This document shows, in pieces, positions 30,405 through 61,232 of a stretch of 64,000 bases of DNA. The notes under the pieces are model-generated. The model saw only the letters and a program-made list of their open reading frames with translations. It was not told where the DNA came from and ran no database searches. Source of the DNA: Candidatus Gastranaerophilales bacterium. Its GTDB lineage: Bacteria > Cyanobacteriota > Vampirovibrionia > Gastranaerophilales > Gastranaerophilaceae. Each line of letters opens with the position of its first letter. Positions within the stretch are counted from its first letter, which is position 1. The position numbers were made by a program, and so were the translations under genes. The stretch is taken from assembly GCA_944324945.1 (NCBI GenBank), contig CALUYE010000004.1, forward strand, positions 1 through 64,000. Reading direction: 5' to 3'.

Positions 30405-30968
30405 ATGAAAGTAACAGGTGTATCTTCTTTTAACTATAACAGATACAAAAATGTAAAGAACAATTCTGCAAATTCTAAAAAGAATGTAAACTTTGGTACA
30501 TACACAAGTGAAGAAGCAAGAAAGAGAGTGATAAAACAAGCATTTAAAGAAGATAAAAAATATGTTAAAACGTATGATGACGCACAATTCCGCTACGGGC
30601 AATGGTTTGAACGTGATTTTGTTGAAGTTTATATCGATGAAAATAATGTTTTAAAAGCAAAATTTCTCCCCGAAAAAGTACAAGGAACTCCTGCTGTAAG
30701 ACTGTATAAATATTTTAACACACCCGAATACTATAAAGAAGAATATGTGGATGGCCGGAATAAAACTTTTACAAATCTAAATTATGATTTTTGTTTTGAC
30801 AATTTGGAAGCTCCGGGAGCTTTATATAAAGCCGCTTCAGGCTGTAGTTCCGTATGGGAGCTATCACTTCCTGAAAAACCCAGAGAGGTTGAATACAAAG
30901 AACCGGAAAATTTCTGGGAGATTGACGAAGAAACCAGATACAAAATAGAGAACTGGTACGCTCAGTAA
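30405..30968 (+). CDS. Unknown protein with N-terminal MKV...NFG motif
   Basis: 187 residues. The N-terminus (MKVTGVSSFNYNRYKN, low-complexity Asn/Lys, then NVNFGTY) resembles that of the next gene and of the gene at 59964. The remainder is a compact charged and aromatic domain with RYGQWFERDFVEVYIDENN, which I cannot assign. There is no hydrophobic leader. GAGG about 11 nt before the ATG supports the start. An inverted repeat lies just downstream. Confidence 0.55.
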   Translation: MKVTGVSSFNYNRYKNVKNNSANSKKNVNFGTYTSEEARKRVIKQAFKEDKKYVKTYDDAQFRYGQWFERDFVEVYIDENNVLKAKFLPEKVQGTPAVRLYKYFNTPEYYKEEYVDGRNKTFTNLNYDFCFDNLEAPGALYKAASGCSSVWELSLPEKPREVEYKEPENFWEIDEETRYKIENWYAQ

Positions 30969-31016: not shown

Positions 31017-31170
31017 GTATTTAAAATATTTATAGTTAAATGATTATACTAAAGGCAAAACAGAAGAAGTATAGCGTTAGTTTTGTAATTTAATATTTAT
31101 TAACAAATGGGCAATTTTTATTAATCACTTGTTTTATAAAATATGATTGTATTATAAGAAAAGTGTGAAA

Positions 31171-33333
31171 ATGAAAATTGCCCATTTTAATAATTTGAAT
31201 AACATAGGGCAGGATGTATCTTTTAAAGCAATAAAGACATCCGATTTTACGGATCTTTGTAGACATGTTAAAGCGGCGCAAAAGTTTGCGGATTGCCGAT
31301 TTGGCAATATTTACACTACTCTTGTGAATGAATTATGGCAAAAAAACCCGGAACTTTTTGATATTTGTGATTTTGACGGTTCAAAACTTAAAATTGTCCG
31401 CGATGATTCCATTAAAAGAAGGGCAATAGTGAGTTTTAAAACTTTTATTTCTATGCCGTTGGATTTAGTTAATGCGATTGCTGAAAAATTTCCGAATTCA
31501 AAATTTTACAATCTTGAAATATTAAAAAAACACAGAGAAGCCGCTCAATTTGAAGACCATCTAAAAGCGCTGCAAGGGCTTCAAAATAAGGGAATAGAAA
31601 TTGCTAAAAAATCATTGAGAAAAAATAATGTAACGGCATATCCGGCTGATTCACCCTCTTGCAATGATTATTGTGAAAACTTATGCAGTTTTTTCGGAGA
31701 AGAATTTAATAAAGTTCTTAATAATAAAATGGCTGATGATGTTGCTATGTATGATACAAAAAAAGAAAGGTTTGTAACAAGGCTTGTATCAGGTTTCACG
31801 GCAGCGTTATTTTTAGGAAACGATTTTTATAATAAAGCAATTGAAAAAGGCAAGACCGAAAAAGAAGCTAAAAAAGAACAATATCTTAAACAAGGACAGG
31901 AAGTAAGGGAAAATATATGCGAAGCAATAACGCAGTTTGCCGTGTTTGCGTGTTTTTCAAAATTTGTTAATTCATCTCCCTGGGCTCCTGCTATTGTAGG
32001 TGCTGCAATAGGTTTTGTATCGCGTATTGTATCAAGATTAAGTTCCAATATGCCGATTAGAAGAATAACAGCTCCAAAAAGAACTGCGCTTGAAACACCT
32101 TCCTTAGAACAGTATAAAAATTATACAAAAGAAGGTAAAAGTGAAAATATAGTTACAAATACAAAATTTGAAAATGATAAAAAAGAAACCAAAAAACCCG
32201 TTTTGAATGCAAAGAACATAATCCTATTCTGCTTATTCAGTATTGCAGGCGGTTATAGCGCAAGATTCATTAAAAATAATACAAAAATCGGCAGAGAATT
32301 TGCACAATTTATACAAAAACGCAAAGATATAATGCAAGATGTAACACATGAAAATTTATATGCACGCAAAAATACCGTATATGGTATGCAACAAATTGCA
32401 AATGTTATAGGAGAGAAGGCTTTAAAAGCAAAAGCAGATAAAATTTTAAACGAATTTGAAAAAATCAATGACAGTAAGATTTTAATCGGCAGAGAATGCA
32501 AAAAAACAAAAATATTTGGTGTTGAAGTTAAAACAAAAGACCTATTTTCTTTGGCAACGGCTCCTTTTGAGTTTGTAAAAGAATTTTTATTCTATCCTTA
32601 TAAAATAGCTGATAAATTAGAAAAAGGAATAAGGTCAAAATTGAATAATGATACTCCTTTGGATGAATTATCCGCCCCAATGAGAATTGTGCGCAGATTA
32701 ACGGATAAAATAAAAGAAAGATTCCCCGATAAATTCGCTTCAAATGCTTTAAATACAAAAGATAAAATTAATCATGACGATATATATGAATTTAAAAATA
32801 TATATAAGAAATTTGCCGAATTTGAAGAAAAATACAAACATCATCCCGAACAACTTAAAGAAGAATTCACTAAATATCTAAGAAAGACAAGGCTTATGTC
32901 TTTCAATGAAATTACACAGTCAAAAGGCGATAATTCTCAAATTGCGGTACTAGCTCAAACTTTAGGTACGCTTACAGGCATGTGGTTTAATATGAATGAT
33001 GAATACAACGCTTCAATAAGAAACGGAAGCACAAAAACCCAAGCAGAAAAAGAAGCAAGACTAAGAGGTATTAATAAATTCTTTAGAATGACGGTACAGG
33101 TTATCATATCGGCTAATTTGAACAGACTATTTAAAGCACAATACAACAGCTCTATTGCAAAATCAGCCTTAATTGTTGCCGCAAGCACAATTTTAACCGA
33201 CGCCGCTTCAAGAATAATGTCAGGCATGCCGACACATAAAATGACCAAAGAAGAACTTGAAGAATACAGAGAAAAACACAAAGAAGGCGTTATGAAGTGG
33301 TACTACGATGTAATCGACAAATTGGCTTCATAA
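31171..33333 (+). CDS. Large membrane protein with an internal duplication, unknown function
   Basis: 720 residues from the ATG at 31171; the frame is open from a TTG at 31147. The N-terminus (MKIAHFNNLNNIGQDVSFKAI) carries the same short motif as the preceding gene. Two related modules of about 93 residues lie at 31792-32070 and 32961-33246: each has ND-x-YN-x2-I-x2-G-x-T, a charged A-x-KE helix, a hydrophobic stretch and a final SR-x2-S-x-MP-x3-T. A further hydrophobic segment (about residues 355-372) and Lys-rich helices lie between them. It resembles no characterised family known to me. Confidence 0.65.
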   Translation: MKIAHFNNLNNIGQDVSFKAIKTSDFTDLCRHVKAAQKFADCRFGNIYTTLVNELWQKNPELFDICDFDGSKLKIVRDDSIKRRAIVSFKTFISMPLDLVNAIAEKFPNSKFYNLEILKKHREAAQFEDHLKALQGLQNKGIEIAKKSLRKNNVTAYPADSPSCNDYCENLCSFFGEEFNKVLNNKMADDVAMYDTKKERFVTRLVSGFTAALFLGNDFYNKAIEKGKTEKEAKKEQYLKQGQEVRENICEAITQFAVFACFSKFVNSSPWAPAIVGAAIGFVSRIVSRLSSNMPIRRITAPKRTALETPSLEQYKNYTKEGKSENIVTNTKFENDKKETKKPVLNAKNIILFCLFSIAGGYSARFIKNNTKIGREFAQFIQKRKDIMQDVTHENLYARKNTVYGMQQIANVIGEKALKAKADKILNEFEKINDSKILIGRECKKTKIFGVEVKTKDLFSLATAPFEFVKEFLFYPYKIADKLEKGIRSKLNNDTPLDELSAPMRIVRRLTDKIKERFPDKFASNALNTKDKINHDDIYEFKNIYKKFAEFEEKYKHHPEQLKEEFTKYLRKTRLMSFNEITQSKGDNSQIAVLAQTLGTLTGMWFNMNDEYNASIRNGSTKTQAEKEARLRGINKFFRMTVQVIISANLNRLFKAQYNSSIAKSALIVAASTILTDAASRIMSGMPTHKMTKEELEEYREKHKEGVMKWYYDVIDKLAS

Positions 33334-55036: not shown

Positions 55037-58000
55037 ATGTATATTAAAGAAATCGAAATAGACAATTTTAAATCTTTTGCCTCAAAGGTTGTCGTTCCTT
55101 TGATGCCCGGTTTTACTGCGATTTCAGGGCCAAACGGTTCAGGTAAAAGCAATATTATAGACAGTATTCTTTTTGCACTCGGTTTAACAACAGCCCGCTC
55201 TTTGCGCTCAGAGCAAGGGGTAGCTGATTTAATTACAAACCACAATAAAAGAAACGAAGCAAGCGTTAAAGTTACCTTTGCGGATGAAAAACAAGACGAA
55301 AACCAAAGCGAATTTTCAATTAAAAGATATATCAAAAAAGGCAAAAACGGCGTTCAATCAACTTATTATTATAACGATAAACCCGCAACCTTAACGCAAA
55401 TTCATTTGGAACTTGAAAAATATAATATAACCCCAAACGGCTACAATGTTATGATGCAGGGGGATGTTACCGAAATTACAAACTGTTCTGCAACAGAGAG
55501 AAGAAAAATAATAGATGAAATAGCGGGTACTGCTGATTTTGACAGAAAAATTGCCCTTGCAAGCGAACAGATTCAAGGGGTTGAAGATGAAATTGCAAAT
55601 AAAAAAATACTGATGGATGAGATTGATTCAAGAATTGAACAGTTAAAAGAAGAAAGAGAAGTTGCGCTAAAGTATAAAAAGTATAAAGATGAAAAAATTT
55701 CTCTTGAAAATAAAATTCAGAGCGCTAAATATTTTGATGTTAAAAAATCGCTTGAACTTGTACATCAAAACATTCTTCTTGCGACAAAACAAAGAAAAAG
55801 TTTATCGGAAGAATTAAAAGAACTTCAATCAAAAATTGAAGATACAAAATTAAAATATGACGAAATAAATGCAAAAGTAAGAGCGCAAGGGGAAGAAAAA
55901 CAGCTTGAAGTTAAAAAAACCGCAGAAGAACAAAAAGGTATTCTTGAGCGCAAAAACTCGGCAATTGCTCTTGCAAACAAAACCATAATCGATAATTTAA
56001 AATCAATTGAAAGCTATAAAAACGGTATTGAAGTTCAAAAAAATAAAATTGAAGAATATAAAAAAGCAATAGAATTTAAAAATAAAGAACTTGAAGATTT
56101 AAACAATCAATTAAATGATAAAAAAGAACAACTAAACTCAATAATTCTTGAAATGACGGGGCTAAATAAGTCTGCTGATGAACACATTCAAAACAGAAAC
56201 AAAATAAAAAAAGAACTTGACGATATAAAAGATGAAGAAACCTCTCTTTTAAAAGAGCAATTGCCGAAAGAAAGCGAATATAACAATTCAAAAGATAAAA
56301 TTAAAGAAATTAAAGAAAATATTGATAAATTATTAAATTCAAGAAAAGTTTTTGAAGATGAAAAAGATAAATTAAATCTTCAAATTGAAACTCTGCAAAA
56401 AGAAGTTGAAGATTTTAAGCTTATTCAAACAAAAAGTTTTGAAGAGCTTGATAAAACAAAAGCTCAAAAAGAAGATACATTTTATAAAATACAAAAAACG
56501 CAGCAAAAAATAGCAATCCTTGATGCCAATAAAAACGCTTATAAATCAGCAGGCCAGGGTTCAGGTGTTGAAACGGTATTAAATGCTCACATTAAAGGTG
56601 TCCATGAACCTCTTGCAAAATTAGCCGATGTTGATGAAGAATATATTGATGCAATCAATGTTGCAATGGGCGCAAGAGCGTATTCAATCGTAGTTGATAG
56701 TCAGGATGTTGCATACAGAGCAATTCAGGTTCTTCGCTCTCAAGGCCGCGATAGAGCATCTTTTATTCCTTTGGATATAATTAAAAAAGCGCCAAGCCGC
56801 ATGGTATTGCCTAAATCAATAGGAGTTATTGATTTTGCAATTAATTTAATTGATTTTGATGACGAATATCTTGATGCGTTTTATTTTGCGCTTGGTGAAA
56901 CAATAGTTGTCGAAAATGAAGCGGCCGCAAAAAAACTTGCAGGTAAATACAGAGTAGTAACTCTTGAAGGAGATATAACCGAAAAAAGCGGGTTAATTAC
57001 AGGCGGTGCCAAGAAAAAAACAATGGGATTGTTTGATAAAACCCAAGAGCGCGAGCTTGAAAAGCATAAAAAATTACTTACGGAGCTTCAAAAACAAGCA
57101 CAGGATTTAAACACAAAAGAAAAAGATTTAGAGCGCAGATTAAACGATACGCGGCAAAAATATTTGAATTCAACAAATGTATTAAATTCAGCTAAACTGG
57201 AGTTAAAAAATCTTATCTCAAACAATGAACAAGCTCAAAGTGTTATAGAACAAGGTGAAAGCCAGTTAAAAGAATTAAATGAAATAATTAAAAAATTAAA
57301 TCGTGAGCTTGATTTAATTGAAGCAAAAAGAATAAAATTAAACGATAAATTCCAGCAAAAACAAGAAGAACTTGTAGAAGTTGAAAAATTAATCGATGAA
57401 GGCGAACTAAAAAAATTAAAAGAAAAAACAAACGCAGTTGAAGAAGATATCAAAAATATCGAAAAAAATATAATGACAAAAGAAAATGAAATTGAAAAAG
57501 ATGAAAATCAAATTAAATTTCAACAAAGTCAAATTACAACGCGCGAAACCGATATTAAAAAGCTTGAAAAAGATAACGAAATTTTAAACAGCGATATTGA
57601 ACAATTTAAAAAAGAAACAGAAGAAGTAAAAAAAGTTATTGAAGAATTAGAAGAAGAAATAAAGGAACTCGGAAAAAATCTTGTTGAATTCCAATCAAAA
57701 AGGGATGAAATTCAAGAACAGCTTTTGAATTTAAAAAATTCCAAAAATAAAACGGAAAACGAACTTGAAAGACTATCCGAGCAGGATGAAGCAAATAAAA
57801 CAAGAAGAAGAGAATTAGAACCTATCTTAGAATCAATTCTAAAGACTTTTGAAGAAAACGGAATTAAGGTATCCGAACTTGAACAAAGTGAAATTTCGCT
57901 TGATGAAATCAATTCAAAAATTGCAAAACTTCAAAAGAAAATGGATGATCTAGAGCCTGTTAATATGAGAGCGCTAACCGAATATGATGAAGTAGTTGAG

Positions 58001-58546
58001 CGCCAGAATTCAAATAAAGAAAAAGTTTCAACCCTTGAAAACGAAAAAGACGAAATCAAAACAAGAATGAACGGTTATCAGGGGCTTAAAAAAGAAACGT
58101 TTTTGGATGCATACCATGCAATAAATAAGAATTTTAAAGAAGTTTTTGCGCAAATTTCGCAAGGCGAAGGCACTTTATATCTTGAAAACGAAGATGATCC
58201 TTTCTCGGGCGGCTTGACTTTCAGAGCGAATATAAGAGATAAGGTAAATCAAAAATTAGCGGGCATGTCGGGGGGAGAAAAGTCTTTAACGGCACTTGCT
58301 TTTGTTTTTGCAATTCAAAAATACATGCCTTCGCCATTTTATGCTTTTGATGAGGTTGATATGCACCTGGATGGGCCAAACGTTGAAAGATTAGCGGAAA
58401 TTATAACCAACCAGTCAAAAACAGCGCAATTTGTTGTAGTGTCATTAAGAAAGCCGATGTTAGATAATGCCGACAGGATGATTGGCGTAACGCAAAAAGA
58501 TAAAGGCGTTACAAAAATCTCGGGCGTTAAGTTAAGGGAAGAATGA
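55037..58546 (+). CDS. smc: Chromosome segregation protein SMC
   Basis: 1169 residues. N-terminal ATPase half with GPNGSGKSNIID (Walker A), long coiled coils on either side of a hinge (about 500-660, with GVETVLNAHIKGVHEP and GLITGGAKKKTMG), and a C-terminal ATPase half with LAGMSGGEKSLTALAFVFA (signature) and FYAFDEVDMHLDG (Walker B). It forms the bacterial condensin with ScpA and ScpB, which follow directly. The end overlaps scpA by 4 bp (ATGA). Confidence 0.97.
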   Translation: MYIKEIEIDNFKSFASKVVVPLMPGFTAISGPNGSGKSNIIDSILFALGLTTARSLRSEQGVADLITNHNKRNEASVKVTFADEKQDENQSEFSIKRYIKKGKNGVQSTYYYNDKPATLTQIHLELEKYNITPNGYNVMMQGDVTEITNCSATERRKIIDEIAGTADFDRKIALASEQIQGVEDEIANKKILMDEIDSRIEQLKEEREVALKYKKYKDEKISLENKIQSAKYFDVKKSLELVHQNILLATKQRKSLSEELKELQSKIEDTKLKYDEINAKVRAQGEEKQLEVKKTAEEQKGILERKNSAIALANKTIIDNLKSIESYKNGIEVQKNKIEEYKKAIEFKNKELEDLNNQLNDKKEQLNSIILEMTGLNKSADEHIQNRNKIKKELDDIKDEETSLLKEQLPKESEYNNSKDKIKEIKENIDKLLNSRKVFEDEKDKLNLQIETLQKEVEDFKLIQTKSFEELDKTKAQKEDTFYKIQKTQQKIAILDANKNAYKSAGQGSGVETVLNAHIKGVHEPLAKLADVDEEYIDAINVAMGARAYSIVVDSQDVAYRAIQVLRSQGRDRASFIPLDIIKKAPSRMVLPKSIGVIDFAINLIDFDDEYLDAFYFALGETIVVENEAAAKKLAGKYRVVTLEGDITEKSGLITGGAKKKTMGLFDKTQERELEKHKKLLTELQKQAQDLNTKEKDLERRLNDTRQKYLNSTNVLNSAKLELKNLISNNEQAQSVIEQGESQLKELNEIIKKLNRELDLIEAKRIKLNDKFQQKQEELVEVEKLIDEGELKKLKEKTNAVEEDIKNIEKNIMTKENEIEKDENQIKFQQSQITTRETDIKKLEKDNEILNSDIEQFKKETEEVKKVIEELEEEIKELGKNLVEFQSKRDEIQEQLLNLKNSKNKTENELERLSEQDEANKTRRRELEPILESILKTFEENGIKVSELEQSEISLDEINSKIAKLQKKMDDLEPVNMRALTEYDEVVERQNSNKEKVSTLENEKDEIKTRMNGYQGLKKETFLDAYHAINKNFKEVFAQISQGEGTLYLENEDDPFSGGLTFRANIRDKVNQKLAGMSGGEKSLTALAFVFAIQKYMPSPFYAFDEVDMHLDGPNVERLAEIITNQSKTAQFVVVSLRKPMLDNADRMIGVTQKDKGVTKISGVKLREE

Positions 58547-59445
58547 TGAGTAGTGCGGTAAATGAATTTTATACAAATAACAACGAATTATATAATGAAA
58601 TAAAAGTGCTTGACAGCACAATTGATTTTGATGTTCAGGATTCAAAGTATATTTCAAAATCGGGAATAAAAAAAGACATTCAAACGGATGCCATTGAAAT
58701 TATTTTAGATCTTGTAAAGATGGGAAAAATTGACCCGTGGAATATTGATATTGTTGATTTATACGATAAATATATAGCGCGCATCAAGGAATTAAAGCTT
58801 GATAATCTTCGCTCTGTCGGAAAAGCGATTTATTTTTCATCCACCCTTTTAAAAATTAAATCAGACATTCTTCAAGGGATTACAATTGATGATTTTAATA
58901 TTGAACCTGAAGAATATTTTGAAGATGATGAATTTGATTCCGATAATTACGAGCAGCTTCAATTTTCAACAAACAATGTTGTTTCTTTTGATGAAGTATT
59001 GCAGCGAAGAACGTCTGTGCGCTTAAATCGTAAAAGAACGGTAACATTGAAAGATTTAATACGCCATATCCAATTTTATGAAGATTTGGATAAAAAATAT
59101 GCAATTAAAAACGCATTAATCAAAAAAGAACAAAAAGTAAGAAACTATTCAAAACTAAAAGCATCGCAAATTAAAGAACTTGCACATGATGAGTATGTTG
59201 AAGAAGTTGTTGAAAAGATGAGACAAAATCTTGCGCAGATTTTATCCCGCGAAGAAAAAATTGAATTAAGAGAATTGTGTCTTTTAGGGTTTGATAAAAG
59301 TTCCGCTTTTATTGCATTGTTGTTTTTATCAAGAGATAATGAATATGATATTTATCAAAAGGAATTTTACGGAAAATTGTATGCAATAAAAAGTCAAAAA
59401 AACGAAGAAAATATAGAGACCGAACAAGAAAAGCAGGTAGTATAA
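58543..59445 (+). CDS. scpA: Segregation and condensation protein A
   Basis: 300 residues, the kleisin that bridges SMC heads. The segment DAIEIILDLVKMGKIDPWNIDIVDLYDKY is the N-terminal kleisin signature, and the YFSSTLLKIKSDIL region follows. The middle is acidic. The C-terminal winged helix is longer than usual. It starts in the smc stop codon and ends 3 bp before scpB. Confidence 0.92.
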   Translation: MMSSAVNEFYTNNNELYNEIKVLDSTIDFDVQDSKYISKSGIKKDIQTDAIEIILDLVKMGKIDPWNIDIVDLYDKYIARIKELKLDNLRSVGKAIYFSSTLLKIKSDILQGITIDDFNIEPEEYFEDDEFDSDNYEQLQFSTNNVVSFDEVLQRRTSVRLNRKRTVTLKDLIRHIQFYEDLDKKYAIKNALIKKEQKVRNYSKLKASQIKELAHDEYVEEVVEKMRQNLAQILSREEKIELRELCLLGFDKSSAFIALLFLSRDNEYDIYQKEFYGKLYAIKSQKNEENIETEQEKQVV

Positions 59446-59448
59446 AAA

Positions 59449-59961
59449 GTGGAAATTGAAGAAATAAAATCAAAAGTTGAAGCGGTATTATTCATCACAT
59501 CAAGAGCAATGAAGCCGATTGAGATTGCTCAAATTCTGGATTTAGATGAAGAGGTTGTTGAAAATGCACTTCTTGATTTAATGTTTGATTATTCTTCAAG
59601 AAGCGGCGCGCTTGAAATCGATGATGAGGACGGATATATAATCCAGGTTAAGGCGCAACACATGGATATAGTTGAAAAATTGTGTCCTGTGGAGCTTCCT
59701 GCGGCTGTTTTAAAAACGCTTACCGTTATTGCCCTTAAAGAACCGATCCGCCAATCAGCCCTTAAGGAGCTTCGCTCAAGCGCTTATGAACATATAGCGC
59801 TTTTGCTTGAACAGGGGTTGATTTCAAAAACAAAAGATAAAAACGGAAGAAGTTTTAACATTAGGACAACAAAAAAGTTTCAGGAGTATTTTAAATTAAA
59901 AGGAGATATAAAAGCACTTGTTAAAAGGCTTGATGCAACCCAAGATTTAAAAAACCTGTAA
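59449..59961 (+). CDS. scpB: Segregation and condensation protein B
   Basis: 170 residues with two winged-helix domains: EIKSKVEAVLFITSRAMKPIEIAQIL at the N-terminus and KTLTVIALKEPIRQSALKELRS in the middle, both typical of ScpB. GTG start. The next gene starts 2 bp after its stop, so all four genes smc-scpA-scpB-59964 form one tight operon. Confidence 0.92.
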   Translation: MEIEEIKSKVEAVLFITSRAMKPIEIAQILDLDEEVVENALLDLMFDYSSRSGALEIDDEDGYIIQVKAQHMDIVEKLCPVELPAAVLKTLTVIALKEPIRQSALKELRSSAYEHIALLLEQGLISKTKDKNGRSFNIRTTKKFQEYFKLKGDIKALVKRLDATQDLKNL

Positions 59962-59963
59962 AA

Positions 59964-61232
59964 ATGAAAATAGTACCTGTTATAAATTTAAAAAATAATA
60001 TTTATAAGCCATCGGTTATTTCTTTTAAGAATGATAAAATTGATTCTTTTGAGTTTCAAAATGCAAATTTTGATAAAAATGTTTTAATTTCAAGGGGAAT
60101 TATTTCAAAAGACGAAGATTTAAACGCTTTTTTTAACAAAACAGCGTATAGTATTTTTAATTATGATAAAGAAAAATTAAACTTGTTTTCTTCTTATTTA
60201 AAACAGGGTAAAATAAGCCTCTCATCAAACGCATATAAAAATTTATCAGACCCTTCAAGCGCGCTTGCAGTGAAATTAAATCCTTTAAATTTATTTATTC
60301 AAAATTGTTTTTATCTTGACAGATATATTAAAAAAGGCAAAGGAATAGGGATTAATTTTTCTAAGTTTGATAATCCTTCAAGTGAAGTTAAAAAATTTAA
60401 CTCTTATTTTAAATTCAGGGAATCTTCATCTTTTCGCCCTGCTTCCGGGATTGCACTTCTTGATATATATAATAAAGATATTTTAAATTTTATAACTTTA
60501 AAAGATAATGCCTGTTATAAAGATTGGTGTTTTGATTTATCGGTTATAATTGATGATAAATTTTTATCTTTGGTTGATGGTAATAAAGACGTGGTTTTAT
60601 CTGACGGGAATAAAATAAACGCTAAAAAAATATACGATACGCTTTTAAATTCAATGTATAAAAAAGGAGAACCCGGGATTATTTTTTCTTCAAATAAAGA
60701 TTATATCTGCGATTGCTGCGCTGCTGCGCAATTAAAAGAAGGGGAGTTTTTAACTTTAGCTCAGATTAATTTATCAAAATTTGTAAAAGATAATAAATTT
60801 GATTTTGAAGATTTATCCAAAGCTTCATTAATTTTAAATGAAGCAATAAAAAAACTTGATAAAAACGCTTATGTTTCAATTTTAGGTTATCAGGATATGC
60901 TTGATAAAATGAATTTAAAATACGGTTCTGATGAATCGCTTGATTTATTAAAAACGATAATCAAAACTATTAAATCAAACAATATTAAAATGGCAATTTC
61001 GCCATCAGGAACAATTTCGCGATTTTTAAAAACAACTCCATCGATTGAAGAAAATACCAAAGTTAATTATATTGATAAAATAAACACGCTTTCTTTGATT
61101 CAAAATTTAATTGAAGGGCAAATATCAAACACAATAAAATTAGACCAAAATTCAACAATATCGGATGTTGATAAAATAATAAGATATTCAAATAAAAAAG
61201 GTTTAAAAGGAATAAGTGTATTTAGAATCTAA
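59964..61232 (+). CDS. Shortened, apparently inactive ribonucleotide-reductase-like protein
   Basis: 422 residues. In order it shows GIGINFSKF, DILNFITLKDN, CFDLSVIIDDKFL, YDTLLNSMYKKGEPGIIFS, AQINLSKFV, MAISPSGTISRFLKTTP and a final KKGLKGISVFRI. Each matches a landmark of class I/II RNR large subunits, in the right order. The catalytic NPCGE region reads DCCAA, so the Cys may remain but the Glu is lost; the downstream redox Cys of CNLGSINL is replaced (LTLAQINL), and the N-terminal Cys region reads SSALAV. No ATP-cone. The N-terminus carries the MKI...ISF motif of nearby unknown proteins. Probably a non-reductase paralog. Confidence 0.7.
   Translation: MKIVPVINLKNNIYKPSVISFKNDKIDSFEFQNANFDKNVLISRGIISKDEDLNAFFNKTAYSIFNYDKEKLNLFSSYLKQGKISLSSNAYKNLSDPSSALAVKLNPLNLFIQNCFYLDRYIKKGKGIGINFSKFDNPSSEVKKFNSYFKFRESSSFRPASGIALLDIYNKDILNFITLKDNACYKDWCFDLSVIIDDKFLSLVDGNKDVVLSDGNKINAKKIYDTLLNSMYKKGEPGIIFSSNKDYICDCCAAAQLKEGEFLTLAQINLSKFVKDNKFDFEDLSKASLILNEAIKKLDKNAYVSILGYQDMLDKMNLKYGSDESLDLLKTIIKTIKSNNIKMAISPSGTISRFLKTTPSIEENTKVNYIDKINTLSLIQNLIEGQISNTIKLDQNSTISDVDKIIRYSNKKGLKGISVFRI

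Follow-up and report, generated by a model that had tools for sequence, protein, structure and literature searches.

Few enzymes are as strictly conserved as ribonucleotide reductase (RNR). What, then, is the product of a short RNR-like gene that closes an smc-scpA-scpB operon, and can it still be a reductase? The question is raised by a 64,000-nucleotide stretch of contig CALUYE010000004.1 (hereafter, the window) from a Candidatus Gastranaerophilales bacterium, an uncultured gut-dwelling relative of the cyanobacteria. In this stretch an earlier note, made from the letters alone, had described a shrunken RNR large-subunit homolog of 422 residues starting 2 bp after scpB. The coordinates agreed with this placement within the operon. 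The smc stop overlaps the scpA start, the three condensin genes are closely packed upstream, and the gap between the scpB stop (59961) and the RNR-like start (59964) is 2 bp; the downstream neighbor in the window is a convergent gene. The features used in this study are as follows.

55037..58546, + strand: smc (TIGR02169, 948 bits, above cut-off)
58543..59445, + strand: scpA (PF02616, E 5e-15)
59449..59961, + strand: scpB (PF04079, E 3e-30)
59964..61232, + strand: RNR-like gene, 422 aa, final gene of the smc-scpA-scpB operon
59964..60059, + strand: N-terminal residues 1-32, predicted disordered (pLDDT <50), variable within the genus
60261..60263, + strand: A100 codon, at the first redox Cys position of class I/II RNRs
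60363..60377, + strand: loop 1 gap, residues about 134-138
60525..60542, + strand: W188-C189-F190-D191-L192-S193
60711..60725, + strand: finger loop D250-C251-C252-A253-A254, in place of N-P-C-G-E
60750..60752, + strand: L263 codon, at the second redox Cys position
60999..61019, + strand: S346-P-S-G-T-I-S352, counterpart of the substrate-phosphate loop A-P-T-G-T-I-S of NrdJ

Two side observations were made at the ends of the gene. At 61229-61232, its stop codon overlaps that of the convergent gene, which encodes an HD-domain protein, by 4 bp. Lys/Asn-rich N-termini (e.g., MKIxxIxxxN...VSFK/VNFG) were seen in the window at 59964-60059, 30405-30968, and 31147-33333, and may represent an extension typical of the lineage; an FxG N-terminal tag as a lineage-wide feature was rare by strict regex.

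Homology to RNR was clear. In profile searches the window protein matched PF02867 above the cut-off (E 1e-19) and TIGR02504 (NrdJ_Z) with an E value of 8e-25, but scored only 87.4 bits, far short of the equivalog cut-off of 399.95; NCBIfam NF005401 (ribonucleotide reductase-like protein) was matched weakly (E 4e-7, 29 bits versus 906). A sequence search of the PDB with the window protein retrieved Thermotoga maritima NrdJ, and the class I/II landmarks listed previously (GIGINFS, DI-x-FI-x-LK, GEPGIIF, INLSKFV, SPSGTISRF, and KGISVFR) were all present in order. These results indicate a class II RNR (NrdJ) as the ancestor of the RNR-like gene. An AF2 model of the window protein, computed from this protein aligned with 28 viral NrdJ sequences and two other members of the genus, had a pLDDT of 88.4 and a pTM of 0.85. 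DSSP assigned about ten barrel strands in order to this predicted model, with a short betaH. The top Foldseek and VIA-align matches were all RNRs, with NrdJ first, and comparison with 1xje (T. maritima NrdJ) gave a TMq of 0.76 and a Z score of 35.6 over 387 residues with an rmsd of 2.2. Because the alignment consisted mostly of NrdJ rows, the model was biased towards an RNR-like answer, and the fold call therefore rests on homology and the model together, not on the model alone. On this basis, the protein is predicted to keep the RNR barrel.

Residues were assigned by aligning the protein with 28 viral NrdJ sequences as well as 19 full-length relatives, and their conservation was then followed over 26 members of the genus. 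We take the T. maritima counterparts to be C134, N320, C322, E324, and C333, a map that rests in part on sequence alignment. The earlier suggestion that both redox cysteines had been replaced was borne out: the first position is Ala in 26/26 proteins, and the second is Leu in 23 and Phe in 3. The C-x-E segment had likewise been said to lack its Glu, and position 254 is indeed Ala or Thr in all 26 (A254 in the window protein). The finger-loop Asn is also replaced, by Asp (D250), in every member, giving a consensus of D-C/S/P-C-A/G-A/T. RNRs of classes O, I, and II share the NxCxE finger-loop motif (PMC9669993), so the Asn and Glu changes fall outside the described range. The thiyl-radical Cys, C252, had not been singled out before; it is invariant in 26/26 members and aligns with the Cys of the 28 viral NrdJ proteins, so the proposed loss of catalytic residues holds for the redox cysteines and the Glu but not for this position. 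Either a failure to find any RNR match or conservation of all three Cys and the Glu had been named as speaking against the proposal; RNR matches were found, and of these residues C252 is the one retained.

Other parts of the reductase are missing as well. Between betaB and alphaB, about 14 residues are absent relative to NrdJ at loop 1, which is the specificity-effector binding site of RNR (PMC9669993). The C-terminal Cys-rich domain (Zn-finger) of NrdJ, which delivers electrons in NrdJd (PMC5704485), is absent from all 26 genus proteins. The phosphate loop has been kept in the form S-P-T/S-G-T-I-S across the members, and W188, C189, F190, and S193 are invariant in 26/26 where NrdJ has N-F-N-I-S. 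Forty-three residues are invariant in total, including C252, D250, W188, C189, F190, R158, and E236, in proteins that are only ~50% identical; many of them belong to what were once active-site motifs (finger loop, phosphate loop, and GEP).

The gene content of the genus points the same way. No second PF02867 gene and no other class I/II RNR was found in the window genome (99.85% complete), nor was a second PF02867 gene found elsewhere in the genus; in every genome that carries it, the short protein is the sole PF02867 product. The search for a full-length RNR elsewhere in the window genome, proposed as a check, thus returned none and revealed adjacent class III NrdD and NrdG genes instead, both above equivalog cut-offs, so that dNTP supply is independent of the shrunken gene. 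NrdD was detected in 27/28 genus genomes. In the exception, G007 (91% complete), neither NrdD nor a full-length RNR was detected, probably owing to an assembly gap. As a further observation, the genus NrdD (G000:C1:458760-460535, L002) scored ~380 bits to PF13597 versus ~690 for the second of the two NrdD types that occur side by side in this family. The class I small subunit NrdB was found in 0 of 27 genus genomes and BtuR/CobA in 0 of 28, and no PduO-type adenosyltransferase scored above cut-off anywhere in the sample, indicating that the genus has no known route to make AdoCbl. In other genera of the same family, BtuR was present in 31/33 genomes with a full-length PF02867 protein versus 2/9 without one; G036 and G039 have the full-length protein and no BtuR/CobA match. 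Judged by residues and genome content, known ribonucleotide reduction is not possible for the short protein, and the view that it is probably non-catalytic is well supported.

The gene is intact in 26/28 species of the genus, where it encodes 368-448 aa with 43-59% identity to the window protein, and all 26 products matched PF02867 (E up to 1e-3). All 26 frames are open and lie directly behind scpB, with starts from -4 to +6 bp relative to the scpB stop, so the expected position behind scpB in related genomes was recovered. The downstream neighbor is the same convergent gene in 18/26 and one of ~7 kinds of gene in the other eight; the linkage to scpB was therefore maintained through downstream rearrangements. 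The two species without the gene, G015 and G027, are nested within the genus on an ScpA+ScpB tree (moderate support), which implies two losses. In G015, scpB adjoins the same neighbor that lies behind the RNR-like gene in 18 relatives, and this is a clean loss. We conclude that the gene already lay behind scpB in the common ancestor of the genus. Pairwise dN/dS was 0.13-0.3 for the RNR-like gene and about 0.01-0.07 for scpB, and dN was several to about ten times that of ScpB. The protein is thus functional, fast-evolving, and kept by selection; a decayed nrdJ pseudogene was rejected on the 26/26 open frames and the dN/dS values.

Profile searches outside the genus covered two overlapping samples, of 239 genomes from the family and 383 from the order, and yielded two further degenerate NrdJ homologs, one in G278 (L121:2375-4063, 562 aa), which also has a full-length NrdJ, and one in G154 (L120:1333-2379, 348 aa). 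Like the genus protein, and in the same bacterial family, they keep the thiyl Cys and have lost the redox Cys near C333 and the Zn-finger; unlike it, they have other lengths and genomic positions and carry Glu or Asp at position 254. No scpB was found beside either copy on the available flanking DNA. In a quick tree, the genus copies formed one clade (support 100) grouped with G154 and G278, apart from full-length proteins. The degenerate forms may have arisen only once, although the branches are long and long-branch attraction could explain the grouping. Sister genera have a full-length NrdJ elsewhere in the genome, and the nrdJ genes examined there are not beside scpB, so shrinkage of an nrdJ locus in place is unsupported. 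A recent phage origin was also rejected, since no close viral or phage relative was found and the best phage match had ~25% identity over half the protein.

Very probably, then, the protein is a non-reductase kept under selection, and its best explanation overall, although a tentative one, is a domesticated pseudo-reductase. The old pocket probably still binds a nucleotide or a similar phosphorylated ligand, which is plausible given that the protein retains the phosphate loop and the Cys of the finger loop; with loop 1 deleted, classical allosteric sensing at the specificity site is unlikely. A functional link to condensin, suggested by gene linkage, is conceivable. In the mechanism we propose, a nucleotide or similar phosphorylated ligand would bind in the old RNR pocket, and the co-expressed accessory protein would tie nucleotide or redox state to chromosome organization or replication, possibly by contacting Smc-ScpAB or components of the replication machinery. 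As a combination, this is somewhat doubtful. The more specific version, in which the barrel is a condensin accessory factor (or an enzyme serving condensin) that reads a nucleotide bound in the former catalytic pocket and thereby makes chromosome organization follow dNTP supply or replication speed, is unlikely. Several findings weigh against the proposed explanation as a whole: two genus species lack the gene, which is dispensable there; the protein's rate of evolution is far above that of ScpB, which is not the behavior of a tightly constrained condensin subunit; and the degenerate homologs in G154 and G278 are not beside scpB. Co-location with scpB may reflect only co-expression.

The same evidence bears on other explanations. 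A neofunctionalized enzyme, whose barrel would use the invariant D250-x-C252 and C189 to run a different reaction on a nucleotide-like substrate, by thiol chemistry or by a thiyl radical from an unknown activator, would account for the invariant residues listed above at such low overall identity, as well as for the thiyl-position Cys in the G278 and G154 homologs. We consider it improbable, because there is no known radical source (neither NrdB nor a cobalamin adenosyltransferase), several active-site segments are deleted, and a buried Cys can stay conserved for packing. A structural or scaffold protein that works solely through the surface of its folded barrel, for instance as an additional subunit bound to ScpB or Smc, would fit the strict linkage to scpB and the near-overlap with it in 26/26 genomes, kept despite the downstream rearrangements; the many invariants in former active-site motifs and the fast evolution beside a slow ScpB make this equally improbable. 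That the protein is still a ribonucleotide reductase with unusual chemistry is far less probable again. The RNR fold and the thiyl Cys are retained, but all 26 members lack both redox Cys, the Asn and Glu of the finger loop, and the Cys-rich C-terminal domain, neither a known AdoCbl synthesis route nor NrdB was found, and a complete NrdDG is present; a functional RNR was rejected on these residues and this genome content. A functionless, decaying nrdJ relic would explain the two losses and the high dN, and is the least probable reading of all, given open frames in 26/26 genomes at ~50% identity, dN/dS of 0.13-0.3, 43 invariant residues, and a position behind scpB that differs from that of nrdJ in the sister genera examined.

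A domesticated pseudo-reductase would mean that an old enzyme, here an RNR-barrel protein lacking most catalytic residues and under selection across a genus, seems to have been reassigned to another job. In Bacillus subtilis, hydroxyurea lowers dNTPs through RNR inhibition and relieves the need for Smc (PMC3919155; also PMC4634966), which makes a nucleotide-condensin link biologically sensible without proving it here. The operon partner of the gene is condensin, whose connection to dNTP supply and fork speed is established in B. subtilis (PMC3919155), and the gene gives a direct handle on that connection. In addition, annotation pipelines could mistake such a gene for a functional B12-dependent RNR.

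Searches of the open literature yielded no paper dealing with RNR in Gastranaerophilales, and for Melainabacteria a single irrelevant match. As the earlier note had supposed, no described case was found; provisionally, a genus-wide, selected cellular RNR-barrel protein without most catalytic residues seems undescribed in the searched, non-subscription literature. Compared with T. maritima NrdJ (1XJE; TIGR02504), the genus protein shares the barrel fold, finger-loop Cys, phosphate loop, and motif order. It has 422 residues versus 644 in NrdJ, lacks the redox Cys pair, the NxCxE Asn and Glu, and loop 1, and belongs to a genus without known cobalamin adenosylation. The class O RNRs of cyanophages (PMC9531940, PMC9669993) also have a very small RNR barrel; in contrast, they still have NVCLE in the finger loop and both cysteines of the active-site pair. 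Betaherpesviruses offer the nearest precedent, an inactive R1 homolog known from HCMV UL45 and MCMV M45 (PMC5469499), in which the RNR large-subunit fold is likewise kept for a non-reductase job. Those proteins are viral and act in host cell-death and NF-kappaB signaling, whereas the genus protein is bacterial, derived from class II, and encoded in the smc-scpA-scpB operon.
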